The notes under the pieces are model-generated. The model had not been told where the DNA came from, did no database searches, and saw only the letters and a program-made list of their open reading frames with translations. Of a stretch of 39,536 bases of DNA, positions 1,124-33,781 are shown piece by piece. The translations under genes were made by a program, and so were the position numbers. The first letter of the stretch is position 1. Every line of letters begins with the position of its first letter. Source of the DNA: a virus; the IMG/VR virus record IMGVR_UViG_3300013115_000236, positions 1-39,536 of that record, one strand, 5' to 3'.

Positions 1124-1225
1124 TCACACTAACTGAAGAATGGGGAGCATAGTTAGAGAAACAGGAGATAGAGATTTAAATCTTCTCAAAAACAACGGAT
1201 ACCCGCTCTACTTTAGAAGGTGTGA
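1124..1225 (+). ncRNA. Structured RNA with pseudoknot core, copy A
   Basis: The outer helix pairs TCACACT (1124-1130) with GGTGTGA (1219-1225), then CTGAAG (1133-1138) with CTTTAG (1211-1216), across an AA/AA internal loop. Inside are GGGGAGCATAGTTA and a 3' part with CTTCTCAAAAACAACG, then ACCCGCTCTA. These match the core of a second copy at 31049-31142, while the outer helices differ in sequence but both pair. GGG (1142-1144) can pair CCC (1202-1204) and GAGC (1145-1148) can pair GCTC (1205-1208), an H-type pseudoknot. It lies just before the gene at 1250. It may be a cis-regulatory leader or a free RNA; I do not recognise the family. Confidence 0.75.
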
Positions 1226-4324: not shown

Positions 4325-4561
4325 CGAGATAAATATTATTTAGCTTCGTCCAGTATGTGCTTGTATGTGCTTCGTCCAGTATGTGCTTGTATGTGCTTCG
4401 TCCAGTATGTGCTTCGTCCAGTATGCATTGTATATTGTCATCTATATACTTCGTCCAGTATGTGTTGTGTATTATATGATTTGACGAGGTAAACAAGATA
4501 AAATGGGTAATATTTAATTATCTCGTCATTGTGTCGAGATAAATATTATTTAACTTCGTCC
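4325..4561 (+). repeat. Iteron-like array of CTTCGTCCAGTATG repeats
   Basis: CTTCGTCCAGTATG occurs at 4344, 4370, 4396, 4412 and 4449 (steps of 26, 26, 16 and 37 bp), with CTTCGTCC again at 4554. The array is bracketed by two copies of CGAGATAAATATTATTTA (4325 and 4535), each leading into CTTCGTCC. TCTCG/CGAGA hairpins lie next to both brackets. An 82-residue minus-strand frame here is only the translated repeat. Iterons of a replication origin are one reading; expansion by slippage is another. Confidence 0.8.
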
Positions 4562-13617: not shown

Positions 13618-13884
13618 ATGAAAGAAATACAAAAGAATAGTAAAGAAGTAATTCGTATTGGAGAAAGTGAATACGAAGGTCATAAGTTCGTAGATTGTAG
13701 AATATATTATGATGACAATGGAGAATGGCGACCTACCAAGAAAGGTATATCATTTAGTCATAAGATAGCTCATGAAGTTGTAGAAGCTATTATAGAGACT
13801 ATGGAAGAATCTAATTGGAAAGATTTTGAAACTACACCTGGTCAAATAAAAGGTCAGAGTGGGGGATCATTATATGGAAAATAG
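13618..13884 (+). CDS. PC4-like single-strand DNA-binding protein
   Basis: 88 aa. EYEGHKFVDCRIYYDDNGEW, then RPTKKGISFSHKIAHEVVEAI, matches the PC4/Sub1 coactivator domain: beta strands with an aromatic pair, the KKGI turn and a C-terminal helix. Such domains bind single-stranded DNA as dimers, so a role in phage replication or transcription is likely. It follows phoH directly and its last codons overlap the radical SAM gene. Confidence 0.75.
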   Translation: MKEIQKNSKEVIRIGESEYEGHKFVDCRIYYDDNGEWRPTKKGISFSHKIAHEVVEAIIETMEESNWKDFETTPGQIKGQSGGSLYGK

Positions 13885-14911
13885 TCTATATACACTTTAT
13901 GCCCACGAATTTAAAGATGGGAATATATCGCCACGTATTCTACCGCCTTGTTTAGAAATAGATTTAACAAATTCTTGTAATCAAGATTGTATCTATTGTT
14001 GTTCAGCAGAACATAGAAAATCAAATCCATCAAAAGCAAAATATGAAGATTTTATTAAATTGTTAGATAATCTTACCGAGTGGAATTTAAATAATTCTGT
14101 GGGTAAATTAACTTCTATTATTTTTGTTGGTGGGGGTGAACCTACCCTATTTAAAAATTACGAATATATTATTAAACATAGTATTGATTTGGGTTTTAAT
14201 ACTTCAATTGTTACAAATGGAACAAAGTTAGATAAACTCTTAAATATCGGTCCCGAATATATAAAAAAAATGCAATGGATTGGAGTTGATTTAGATAGTG
14301 CGATAGAAGATTTATACAATCTCGTCAGACTTCCAAAAGGTCCTGGACAATTTGATCAAGTCAAAGAAAACATTCAGAAAATAACAAAGATTGGTGGGAA
14401 AGTAGATATCAAAGCACTGATACTTGGAGAAACCGCAAATAAAACAAATATCTTGAATCTTTTTGAATATACAAAAGAAGTAAACGCAAGAATGATTTAT
14501 ATAAGGTCGGCTGTATTAGAAAAAGGTGATGGTGATGCTTATATCATTGAACAGGATTTAATGAACTATATTCTCAAGATAAAAGACATATATAACTTCA
14601 AAGTCAGAGTAAACCAAAGAGAACAAATAACTGCAAGATGTTATAAAAAATGTTATGCTCTGTATTTATTACCAATATTTTGTGCAGATGGGTTAATTTA
14701 TCTATGTCCAGAACATAGAGGAAATAAAAATTTAACCATTGGTAGTTGGATAGAAGATGACTGGAGAAGTATATGGTGCGGTGATGTTCATAATGATAAA
14801 TTTAATAACTTTGATATATCTATTTGTTCACCATGTAGACCAGACCCATACAATACTGGTATTCAACAAGTATTAAATAATCCAGATAGATTTGAGGAGC
14901 TATTCTTTTAA
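13874..14911 (+). CDS. Radical SAM enzyme with SPASM-like C-terminus
   Basis: 345 aa. CNQDCIYC (Cys 35, 39, 42) is the CxxxCxxC cluster that binds the SAM-cleaving 4Fe-4S. GGGEPTLF and the VTNGT strand follow as in the radical SAM barrel. The C-terminal part has many cysteines (CYKKC, CPEHR, CSPC) that could bind further clusters, as in SPASM proteins. Substrate unknown. Start at ATG 13874 with GGGGGA upstream; an in-frame GTG at 13859 is weaker. It overlaps the PC4-like gene by 11 nt. Confidence 0.88.
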   Translation: MENSLYTLYAHEFKDGNISPRILPPCLEIDLTNSCNQDCIYCCSAEHRKSNPSKAKYEDFIKLLDNLTEWNLNNSVGKLTSIIFVGGGEPTLFKNYEYIIKHSIDLGFNTSIVTNGTKLDKLLNIGPEYIKKMQWIGVDLDSAIEDLYNLVRLPKGPGQFDQVKENIQKITKIGGKVDIKALILGETANKTNILNLFEYTKEVNARMIYIRSAVLEKGDGDAYIIEQDLMNYILKIKDIYNFKVRVNQREQITARCYKKCYALYLLPIFCADGLIYLCPEHRGNKNLTIGSWIEDDWRSIWCGDVHNDKFNNFDISICSPCRPDPYNTGIQQVLNNPDRFEELFF

Positions 14912-30019: not shown

Positions 30020-30468
30020 GTAAATATATTTCTCATAGTAGAGATAGAGAATATATGAGTGGTATTGAAAGAGATGAACTTCGTGTAAAACAAACTGCTG
30101 AAGTTTTTACACCAACTGATGATGTTCGAAAAATTTTGAATGAGTATCCAATAAATTTATTTACAGATATTAATAAAACATTTTTAGATAATAGTTGTGG
30201 TGATGGACAATTTTTATCAGAAGTAATAATTAGAAAAATGGAAAGAAGTAATTGTACATTAGAACAGGCATTATCTACTACATATGGTGTAGAGTTAATG
30301 GAAGATAATGTTAAGTTATGTAAAGAAAGATTAGCAGGCCCCAATCCCACACAAGAGATATTAGATATATTGGATAAAAATATTGTATGTGCTGATGCCC
30401 TAACTTACGATTATAGTTTTGGTGAACCAACAGGGATAGAGAAGTGGACCGGAAAGTTCAGATTATAA
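30001..30468 (+). CDS. N6-adenine methyltransferase, SAM-binding part
   Basis: 155 aa. Motif X appears as KQTAEVFTP (30-38), motif I as FLDNSCGDGQFL (61-72), motif II as YGVELMEDN and motif III as NIVCADALTYDY. The protein ends shortly after motif III, just where NPPY would come. It overlaps the NPPY-bearing gene by 19 nt, so the halves are made together and probably form a heterodimer. Confidence 0.8.
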   Translation: MDKNELSKYISHSRDREYMSGIERDELRVKQTAEVFTPTDDVRKILNEYPINLFTDINKTFLDNSCGDGQFLSEVIIRKMERSNCTLEQALSTTYGVELMEDNVKLCKERLAGPNPTQEILDILDKNIVCADALTYDYSFGEPTGIEKWTGKFRL

Positions 30469-30470
30469 AG

Positions 30471-30971
30471 ATGAAAAATAACGCACATAGAAAAGAAGCA
30501 AAACTTGGTATTGAATTTGAGAAAAGAATGAAGCCCATATTAGTAAAGAATGGTTTTATTTATATAGACGGAAAAGGAAAAAAGACATCAGCAGGTAAAA
30601 AATATCGTTTTTCATTCAAATACATAAAAGGTTTAGAGCATTATCCTGGCAATCTTCATTGGGATTTTGTTTATGAGGCAGATGGATATCCAATTTTTGT
30701 AGATTGTAAATCTACAAGTATATCACATAAAGATCATAAAGATATTTTGATTAAATCTATGGCATGTAAAAGTAAGTTTCCAGAGTGTAAAATAAAACTG
30801 ATATATTATAAATTTAATAATTCTAAAAGTGAAAATAGAAAATACGCTAGAACTCTTGTTGAAAATGGGATGATAGATCTGATTGTAAAGAGTGAAAAAG
30901 AATTATTATCAAATCCTAAAATATTAATTGACGGTGAAGATAAAGATATTGGAATAGGAAAATTTTTTTAG
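30471..30971 (+). CDS. PD-(D/E)xK-like nuclease
   Basis: 166 aa. HWDFVYEADGYPIFVDCKSTS fits the D...(D/E)xK core, here as Asp followed by VDCK, with KSMACKSKF behind it. The fold is typical of restriction-type and recombination nucleases. Start at ATG 30471; a GTG at 30444 in the same frame lies inside the previous gene. It sits last in the helicase/methyltransferase cassette, so a restriction-modification-like role is the natural guess. Confidence 0.7.
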   Translation: MKNNAHRKEAKLGIEFEKRMKPILVKNGFIYIDGKGKKTSAGKKYRFSFKYIKGLEHYPGNLHWDFVYEADGYPIFVDCKSTSISHKDHKDILIKSMACKSKFPECKIKLIYYKFNNSKSENRKYARTLVENGMIDLIVKSEKELLSNPKILIDGEDKDIGIGKFF

Positions 30972-31032: not shown

Positions 31033-31048
31033 TATAGATGAGAGACTT

Positions 31049-31142
31049 CATGTTAATAAAAGAATGGGGAGCATAGTTATACATAATGGAGAGTAAAATT
31101 CTTCTCAAAAACAACGAAACCCGCTCTACTTTTATTAACATG
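31049..31142 (+). ncRNA. Structured RNA with pseudoknot core, copy B
   Basis: A perfect 14-bp closing helix (CATGTTAATAAAAG, 31049-31062, with CTTTTATTAACATG, 31129-31142). The core AATGGGGAGCATAGTTA and CTTCTCAAAAACAACG...ACCCGCTCTA are shared with copy A at 1124. GGAGAG and CTTCTC (31088-31106) form an inner hairpin. GGG/CCC and GAGC/GCTC give an H-type pseudoknot. It lies in the leader of the chaperone operon and may control it, or be released as a separate RNA. Confidence 0.8.
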
Positions 31143-31148
31143 AAAAAA

Positions 31149-31216
31149 GAATTGTCGCTCAATTGAGGACAATAACATAACGGAATATTCAACGCTCAAT
31201 AGAGGTTGATATTCAA
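31149..31216 (+). promoter_or_regulatory. Two further leader hairpins before hsp20
   Basis: ATTGTC pairs with GACAAT (31153-31173), and GAATATTCAAC pairs with GTTGATATTC with one bulge (31181-31215). They follow RNA copy B and precede the AGGAG of hsp20. Confidence 0.55.
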
Positions 31217-31249: not shown

Positions 31250-31723
31250 ATGACTAAAGTTGCTTTTCGTACAGGTATCCCACATTTCGATAGGGATACA
31301 TTTTTAACACCATTCGACAGAGTTTTTGATCAAATGGTTGAATCACAATTTCCAGAAATCGTAAAAACAGTTGGTGTAAAACCATATGGTAATTCTGCAT
31401 ACCCACGTGTGAACGTATATGAATACGACGACAAAGTTGGTATCGTAGCAGAGATTCCTGGATTAAATAAAAAACAACTATCCGTAGATGTTGAAGATGG
31501 TGTATTGACTATCTCTGGTGATAAACATAGTGCATTTGAAGATGATGGTGCTAAAGTTATCCGTAGAGAGTTAAAACAATCTTCATTCAGACGGTCATTT
31601 GAATTAGGTGAATTGCTCGATGGAGATAACATTTCAGCTAACTTCAAAGATGGTATTCTTTCAGTAGAAGTACCAAAGATAGAACCGGTAGTACCGAAAA
31701 AGCGTTCGGTAAAAATATCATAA
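31250..31723 (+). CDS. Hsp20-type small heat shock protein
   Basis: 157 aa. The alpha-crystallin domain is clear: YPRVNVYEYDDKVGIVAEIPGL, LSVDVEDGVLTISGDK, SSFRRSFELGELLDGDNI and NFKDGILSVEVPK with the conserved A/GxLxVxxPK-type strand. It holds unfolded proteins for refolding, here probably by the GroEL/GroES pair next to it. Start at ATG 31250 with AGGAGAAAT upstream; an in-frame TTG at 31220 is not needed. Preceded by a structured leader of about 210 nt. Confidence 0.93.
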   Translation: MTKVAFRTGIPHFDRDTFLTPFDRVFDQMVESQFPEIVKTVGVKPYGNSAYPRVNVYEYDDKVGIVAEIPGLNKKQLSVDVEDGVLTISGDKHSAFEDDGAKVIRRELKQSSFRRSFELGELLDGDNISANFKDGILSVEVPKIEPVVPKKRSVKIS

Positions 31724-31743
31724 ATAAGGTTATATAATATAAA

Positions 31744-31815
31744 GGGGTTCAACCGATTTTTAGTTTCCAATATAAACAAACTTAAAAAACAACTGAGCCC
31801 CTCTATATATTAAAA
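31744..31815 (+). promoter_or_regulatory. Long-range hairpin between hsp20 and groES
   Basis: GGGGTTCA pairs with TGAGCCCC, and flanking TATA/TATA bases extend it, around a loop of about 40 nt. No T run follows the 3' arm, so it is more likely an attenuator or processing site than a terminator. Confidence 0.5.
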
Positions 31816-31845
31816 TTAAAAACAAATAAACACAGGAGAAAGTAA

Positions 31846-32136
31846 ATGGGTTACAATATAAATCCGCTGTCGGATAGAGTAGTTATAGAAGCAGCAGAAG
31901 CTGACGAAGTTTCTACTGGTGGAATTATCCTACCAGATACAGCACAAGAAAAACCACAACGTGGTAAAGTAGTAGCAGTTGGTCCAGGTAGGACAACTGA
32001 TACTGGAACATTAGTAAGTCCATCCGTTAATGAAGGTGATGAAGTTCTATATGGTAAATATAGTGGAACTGAAATCAATGTTGATGGTGATGATTTATTA
32101 ATTGTTCGTGAGAATGACATAATGGCTAAGTTATAG
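31846..32136 (+). CDS. groES: Co-chaperonin GroES
   Basis: 96 aa, full family length. [42 protein letters not shown] contains the mobile loop (GGIILPD) that binds GroEL, and the ending [10 protein letters not shown] is typical. It caps the GroEL ring during folding. CAGGAG precedes the ATG; groEL follows 10 nt after the stop. Confidence 0.97.
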
Positions 32137-32146
32137 GAGAAATGAA

Positions 32147-33781
32147 ATGGCTAAAGAAATAAAGTATAACTCACAATCCCACTCAGCTTTGATGTCTGGT
32201 GTAGACCAACTCGCGAACGCAGTTAAGGTTACATTAGGTCCAAAGGGTAGGAATGTAGTTATTGAAAAGAAGTTCGGTTCACCACTTATCACCAAAGATG
32301 GTGTTACGGTGGCAAAGGAAGTCGAACTTGAAGATAGATTTGAAAGTGTAGGAGCAGAACTTGTTAAGGAAGTTGCTTCCAAGACATCTGATATTGCAGG
32401 TGATGGAACAACTACAGCTACAGTTCTTGCACAGTCAATTATTAATGAAGGCATTAAGAATGTTACAGCTGGTGCAAATCCAATGTCTATTAAACGAGGT
32501 ATTGATTATGCAGCAGGTAAAGTTGTAGAGTTCATTAAAGAATCATCTAAAGACCTTCCTGATAGTTCTCAAATTGCTCAAGTAGCAACCATATCAGCAA
32601 ATGATGATAGTGAGATTGGTGGAAAGATTGCAGAAGCAATGGAGAAGGTTGGTAAGGACGGAGTTATTACAGTAGAAGAAAGTAAAACCGCTGAAACATA
32701 TTTGGATTTCGTAGAAGGAATGCAATTTGACCGTGGCTATCTTTCACCTTACTTCGTAACTGATTCTGATAATATGGAAGCGGTTCTTGAAGATCCATAT
32801 ATCTTACTACATGACAAGAAAATTTCCAATGTGAAAGACGTTCTTCCAATTTTGGAGAAGGTAGTTCAAACAGGGAAACCAATCGTCATAGTAGCAGAAG
32901 ATGTAGATGGTGAAGCACTGGCAGCTCTCGTGGTAAATAAACTTCGTGGAACTTTTAAAGTTCTTGCAGTGAAGGCACCAGGATTCGGAGATAGACGGAA
33001 AGCTATGTTAGAAGATATAGCATCACTAACAGGAGCAACTGTAATTTCTGAAGAAGCGGGTTACAAATTAGAGAACACAACACTTGATTATCTTGGAACT
33101 TGTTCTCGTGTAGTATCTGATAAAGACAATACAACCGTAGTTGGTGGTAGTGGTGATGTAGATACAATCAAATCTCGTATTAATGAAATCAAAGTTCAGG
33201 TTGAAAAATCTACTTCTGATTATGATATAGAGAAACTACAAGAACGACTTGCCAAATTAAGTGGTGGAGTTGCAGTATTGAATGTTGGAGCACCAACTGA
33301 AACTGAAATGAAAGAGAAGAAAGCTCGTGTGGAAGATGCGTTACACGCAACAAGAGCAGCAGTTGAAGAAGGGATTGTCGCCGGTGGTGGTGTTACTTTA
33401 CTTCGTGCTATTTCAGCTCTTGATGATGTTTCACTTGATGATGAACAAATGGTTGGAGTGAATATCATGAGAAAAGCACTTCAATCACCACTTCGTCAAA
33501 TCTGTGAAAATGCTGGTGAAGAATCTTCCGTCGTAGCACGTGAAGTTCTAAACAGTACGAATGGAACTGGATTTGATGCTCGTAATGGTGAATATGTAGA
33601 TATGTTCACTGCTGGAATTATTGACCCAGCTAAGGTTACTCGTGTAGCAGTAGAGAACGCAAGTTCAATCGCTGGTATGTTGTTGACTACTGAAGCAGTC
33701 ATTACTGAAATTCCAAGCGAAGATTCAGCACCTATGATGTCACCAGGTGGTATGGGTGGTGGAATGCCAGGGATGATGTAA
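32147..33781 (+). CDS. groEL: Chaperonin GroEL
   Basis: 544 aa, full length with all functional parts: [32 protein letters not shown] (nucleotide-binding DGTTT), GGGVTLLRA and the C-terminal [11 protein letters not shown] tail. No truncation or frameshift. A phage with its own complete GroEL, GroES and Hsp20 likely folds its own late proteins. TAGGAGAAATGAA precedes the ATG. Confidence 0.98.

Follow-up and report, generated by a model that had tools for sequence, protein, structure and literature searches.

The window analysed here, the whole of a 39.5-kb virus record (39,536 nucleotides) that carries 21 tRNA genes and an hsp20-groES-groEL cluster, raises the question of whether two short RNAs with a common inner core belong to one selected RNA family and, if so, what such a family might do. 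Both RNAs, first proposed in a sequence-only reading, were confirmed at the positions given for them, and the three core strings described as common to them proved to be shared exactly.

1122-1226, + strand: structured leader RNA copy A (P0002-gene type); covariance model match, covariation, orthologues in L109-L112, L114, L115, L116 and L126
31046-31144, + strand: structured leader RNA copy B (hsp20 type); covariance model match, site upstream of hsp20 occupied in L189, L191, L195, L193/L200 and L196

These are the only two copies of the family in the window. The string CTTCTCAAAAACAACG occurs there as two exact copies and one match with three mismatches, and none of 100 dinucleotide shuffles gave three matches. 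The folds of A and B (z -3.2 and -4.6) were each better than those of all 200 dinucleotide shuffles, and among inverted repeats of like span in the window the outer stem of B scores best.

The search proceeded through relatives of the 100-aa protein encoded downstream of copy A, a two-sequence covariance model applied to those loci, and then an invariant-strand pattern. The covariance model built from both copies, which had been suggested as a check, recovered additional members (E 1e-10 to 1e-12) immediately ahead of the P0002 gene in other phages, and not the empty result that was to speak against the proposal. Members preceding hsp20, where copy B also sits, came from the final pattern scan. 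The family thus delimited comprises 13 distinct sequences of 96-134 nt from uncultured T4-like phage contigs. Under a 13-member model, members scored E 1e-14 to 1e-24 over whole records (those used in model building match by construction), and about 100 viral records yielded no convincing further member. Members come from assembled, incomplete viral contigs, and the viral collection was covered by strict pattern scans and through close relatives at the protein level.

Core patterns derived from A and B alone, exact or gapped, gave chance matches (in terminase and elsewhere, where the second core strand or the outer stem P1 is missing), except for L001, which matches the left end of the window at 99% and carries copy A, and the scan of the genome collection returned two chance matches and no member. 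Weak matches in L174, L176, L181, L120, L123, L178, L185, L182, L217, L218, L216, L229-L232 and L234 were rejected as their core is missing or incomplete, as was a match in S-CAM3, which lies within a CDS and is devoid of the ACCCGCUCUA strand. Melnitz, HTVC008M, P-SSM2, S-PM2, KVP40 and Microcystis phage Mel-JY01 held no convincing member; the match in P-SSM2 reached E 0.167. Relatives of groEL were informative just for the absence of B and for a second RNA, element C, described below.

Scanning A and B against Rfam 15 gave no match (best sub-threshold E 8.8 for A and 0.21 for B, the latter to let-7 on the wrong strand); among other members, L193 reached E 2.8 at best, L126 had none, and five member loci gave tRNAs only. 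Nor did a literature search of partial coverage find a published phage RNA matching the family, and the Rfam result agrees with the earlier remark that no family with such a core was known. Copies A and B are members of one new, previously uncatalogued structured RNA family. It has strong comparative support within an uncultured T4-like phage lineage, and its members, boundaries, structure and genomic logic are defined enough for bench tests.

Each copy is built from a long outer stem (P1) and an inner hairpin (P3), whose relative position is the same throughout the family.

1124-1130, + strand: 5' strand of P1a, copy A, pairing with 1219-1225; 97.2% of cells paired, 3/6 pairs changed on both sides
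1133-1138, + strand: 5' strand of P1b, copy A, pairing with 1211-1216; canonical at 6/6 pairs in 13/13 members, with both-side changes at 4 pairs
31047-31062, + strand: 5' strand of P1, copy B, pairing with 31129-31144 over 16 bp
1163-1187, + strand: P3 inner hairpin, copy A (GGAGA..UCUUCUC), a helix
31088-31106, + strand: P3 inner hairpin, copy B, from folding and the P3 helix test

The outer helix of B consists of 16 continuous pairs and that of A of 7 + 6 pairs flanking an AA/AA internal loop; across members, P1a has 6 bp or more and P1b has 6 bp adjoining the core. The two outer helices had been described as wholly different in sequence yet still pairing. The pairing holds, with five P1 pairs altered on both sides between A and B (alignment columns 6, 7, 8, 12 and 13), but the difference is not complete, the UCA/UGA ends and the innermost AAG/CUU being common to both. 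A MAFFT alignment (A4) misplaced P1a, and a trimmed alignment (A5) was used. Over the 13 members, 98.6% of P1 cells were paired, against 84.7% in shuffles (0/500 as high), 24 cells carried both-side changes, against 6.9, and 7 of the 12 P1 pairs had changed on both sides. The P1 covariation score was 0.532, compared with 0.216 in shuffles and at most 0.198 in slid controls. With the exception of the count of pair types, the covariation measures were more extreme than in nearly every shuffle and in every slid control. The P3 helix score averaged 11.26 versus 8.34 in shuffles, 3 of 2,000 of which were as high.

In two members (L163 at about 4508-4514, and likewise L194), a P1 bulge reads GUAGAGC, the exact complement of the core strand GCUCUAC, and an alternative pairing between them is possible in this subgroup.

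The core itself is made of two strands that are unchanged throughout the family.

1139-1151, + strand: core strand 1, copy A, RAUGGGGAGCAUA, with AUGGGGAGCAUA invariant in all members
1201-1211, + strand: core strand 2, copy A, ACCCGCUCUAC, invariant in all members
31063-31075, + strand: core strand 1, copy B, identical to copy A
31119-31129, + strand: core strand 2, copy B, identical to copy A

Strands AUGGGGAGCAUA and ACCCGCUCUAC are conserved in 13/13 members while P1, P3 and the linkers diverge, and it is this combination of a constant core with outer stems changing in step that places the family under selection. The proposal of a selected RNA such as a riboswitch or ribozyme is accordingly upheld in its first part, by the invariant core and covarying stems, and not in its second, no expression platform common to the members having been seen.

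The core had also been proposed to form a pseudoknot, and the complementarity of GGG with CCC and of GAGC with GCUC is present in every member. It shows no variation, so covariation gives no information on this candidate pairing. Both spacings, GGG to GAGC and CCC to GCUC, are 0 nt; simultaneous formation of the two helices is geometrically doubtful, since the pseudoknot would need two zero-length connections. Forced-pair energies of GAGC:GCUC and GGG:CCC lie within a few kcal/mol of each other and are similar in most members, and the two helices may be alternatives, or just one may form. A leader peptide starting at the conserved AUG was rejected (frame lengths vary from 4 to 35 codons), as was a coding role of the RNA, an indel shifting the second core strand to different frames in A and B.

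The surroundings of the two copies are as follows.

1098-1109, + strand: AT motif TATATTTATATA resembling a late promoter, ahead of copy A and of the TATTTATA/TATTTATT type, with putative promoter activity
1250-1552, + strand: P0002 gene, encoding a 100-aa protein with a probable membrane helix at its C terminus; its relatives in viral contigs number 96
1578-1603, + strand: intrinsic-terminator-like hairpin right after the P0002 gene (ACCTCAT-loop-ATGGGGT and a T run); equivalents in L110, L114 and L126
31028-31038, + strand: promoter-like GATATATATAG upstream of copy B, retained in relatives without B
31250-31723, + strand: hsp20 (PHROG/Pfam), the nearest gene downstream of copy B; groES (31846-32136) and groEL (32147-33781) come next

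The TATTTATA/TATTTATT motif stands 6-26 nt before P1 in 12/13 distinct members, the exception being copy B of the window with GATATATATAG. As it is the reverse complement of the late motif of T4 and S-PM2, TATAAATA (PMC2984593), this AT-rich motif is probably a late promoter. The RNA lies on the same strand as the downstream gene in all 13 members, and only two downstream contexts occur: hsp20 (window B, L189, L191, L195, L193 and L196) and the P0002 unit (window A, L110, L114, L116 and L126, together with L163 and L194, where one other gene comes first). The P0002 protein has no convincing Pfam or PHROG family, and the terminator-like hairpin behind its gene makes the A unit probably monocistronic. 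A strong promoter-like repeat, GCTTGACTTT-n-TCGTAAGATC, occurs in about 14 copies ahead of many genes between 3222 and 37224.

Comparison among relatives shows the RNA to be separable from its sites. In the window's nearest relatives (L007, L009 and L010, 85% identical), promoter-like site and hsp20 leader are both preserved with no copy B between them, GATATATATAGATGAG running directly into the leader; at the P0002 locus of L235, there is likewise cleanly no RNA between promoter-like site and leader. Copy A is retained in contigs resembling these phages, as with L009 and L110 from one metagenome, which we infer to be one phage. In G040 (L163, L239) the RNA is found at the P0002 unit and hsp20 is bare, while in G056 (L191, L235) it is found at hsp20 and the P0002 homologue is bare. 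In a small tree of weak support that does not include L189 and L191, hsp20 genes bearing the RNA fall on more than one branch. Presence and absence, location swaps and scattered positions in the hsp20 tree together indicate that the RNA behaves as a module, and neither gene requires it, as many related hsp20 and P0002 genes are without it.

Whereas the family is established by comparison, its function is a matter of inference. We see nearly an even chance that the RNA is a cis-acting, 5'-terminal leader module on late-type messages, with a core that binds one common factor; it is favoured because every member stands on the sense strand at one of two gene types. Transcription would start at P1 or a few bases before it, so that P1 would lock the 5' terminus of the transcript. 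A single common factor would recognise the invariant core, and a phage or host protein is a likelier candidate for it than a metabolite. Acting in cis, the module would affect the level of its own late message, through stability or elongation, and would be gained or lost as a unit; in phages with both copies, hsp20 and P0002 would share one control. Phage mRNAs can carry stabilising stem-loops at their 5' ends, which P1 resembles in its place near the presumed transcript 5' end; such plain hairpins, however, would need no invariant core, whereas the family has one of 23 nt. Against a cis-acting module, no expression platform common to all members was seen, and no terminator, SD capture or switch at copies A and B of the window; the many related hsp20 and P0002 genes without the RNA also count against it.

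More tentatively, the family might be a functionally new kind of late-leader RNA in phages: a movable cassette at the 5' terminus, placed at the promoters of chaperone and membrane-protein units, that would recruit a conserved factor (e.g. polymerase, ribosome or RNase) or be released as a small RNA, by a mechanism unlike that of catalogued RNA families. Its fixed place heading chaperone and membrane-protein messages, with unit-wise gain and loss, would open post-transcriptional control of phage late genes to direct testing.

The strongest rival, which we regard as rather unlikely, has the family as a small RNA that acts in trans or stands free; it would borrow late promoters, and the gene behind it would be incidental. 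The order seen in L189, L191 and L195, where the promoter-like site and the RNA are followed by a U6 run directly after P1 and then by a second late-promoter-like motif ahead of the leader of hsp20, would fit a separate small RNA just as well and so counts against the cis-acting module; the location swaps of G040 and G056 point the same way. A small RNA is harder to reconcile with sense-strand placement in 13/13 distinct members at just two gene types, and most members are missing a terminator after P1.

Processive antitermination, in which the nascent leader would bind the elongating polymerase and make it resist pauses and terminators, is improbable and is suggested by analogy with the put RNAs of phage HK022, elements of about 70 nt in early transcripts, with two stem-loops, that bind the zinc-binding domain of the RNAP beta' subunit (PMC9378689). 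As with putL and putR, a phage-encoded structured RNA lies near the transcript 5' end, soon after a promoter-like site, and occurs in two copies in the genome or window (PMC9378689). The fold is nevertheless different, the family having a single long closing stem with an invariant internal core and an inner hairpin (96-134 nt) in place of two adjacent stem-loops, and its members stand at late-type promoter-like sites. The terminator-like hairpin directly after the single 100-aa gene of the A unit also argues against antitermination, without excluding it.

A candidate small-molecule riboswitch has an equally slim chance. T4-like aquatic phages do carry riboswitches, such as the glutamine riboswitch at the tmRNA gene of phage Melnitz (PMC9004378), and the invariant, aptamer-like core bounded by covarying stems would fit, as would the 5' leader position suggested by the promoter-like motifs. 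Unlike those riboswitches, the family has no Rfam riboswitch match, no recognised family-wide switching terminator or SD sequestration and no linked metabolic gene; its downstream genes have no common metabolic pathway, and the RNA is cleanly present or absent at the same genes.

Small-heat-shock genes are also known for the RNA thermometers ROSE and FourU, and copy B resembles these in its location in an hsp20 leader. In contrast to them, about half of the family members lie away from hsp20, some 95 nt separate copy B from the SD downstream, which is not part of the element, and Rfam gives no match.

A candidate self-cleaving ribozyme trimming the 5' ends of late messages is very improbable: a small conserved core does sit inside a stem-bounded internal loop, but no Rfam ribozyme model matches, and in several members P1 begins 6-9 nt past the promoter-like motif, leaving little 5' sequence to remove. 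Recent duplication or chance similarity without function, to which the presence of just two copies in the window might point, is refuted by divergent phages that carry members with the same core and covariation.

Several features near the two copies or elsewhere in the window merit description. A trypsin-like protease gene (143-985) adjoins the P0002 unit, and a homologue is also found near the P0002 unit in L114. A gene for a 175-aa protein (30444-30971) has no family match and is absent, along with copy B, from L007, L009 and L010; by eye, its VDCKSTS stretch resembles a PD-(D/E)xK nuclease motif. At 13859-14911 lies a radical SAM protein gene whose best NCBIfam match, far below the curated cut-off, is the viperin family. 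Tandem repeats occur at 2452-2517 (a 22-nt unit in three identical copies) and at 4348-4483 (TATGTGCTTCGTCCAG-type units).

The interval from hsp20 to groES contains another conserved structured RNA, element C (31726-31821); it also occurs in L007 (4590-4685), L009, L010 and L243, where it lies upstream of hsp20 and has a T run after the stem. Its closing stem covaries (GGGGUUC/GAGCCCC, GUGGGUUC/GAGCCCAC, AUAUGAGGC/GCCUCAUAU) and surrounds a conserved AUUUUUAGUUUCCA..AUAAACAAACUUAAAAA core. Element C was rejected as a third member of the A/B family (E 2.4 under the 13-member model, R3; core RAUGGGGAGCAUA / ACCCGCUCUAC absent). The hsp20 leader further contains hairpins at 31151-31173 and 31183-31214, with loops GCUCAAUUGAGG and GCUCAAUAGAGG, the first of which (C-GCUCAA-GAGG, with a varying stem) recurs in most of the related hsp20 leaders checked (L196, L236, L239-L241 and L243).
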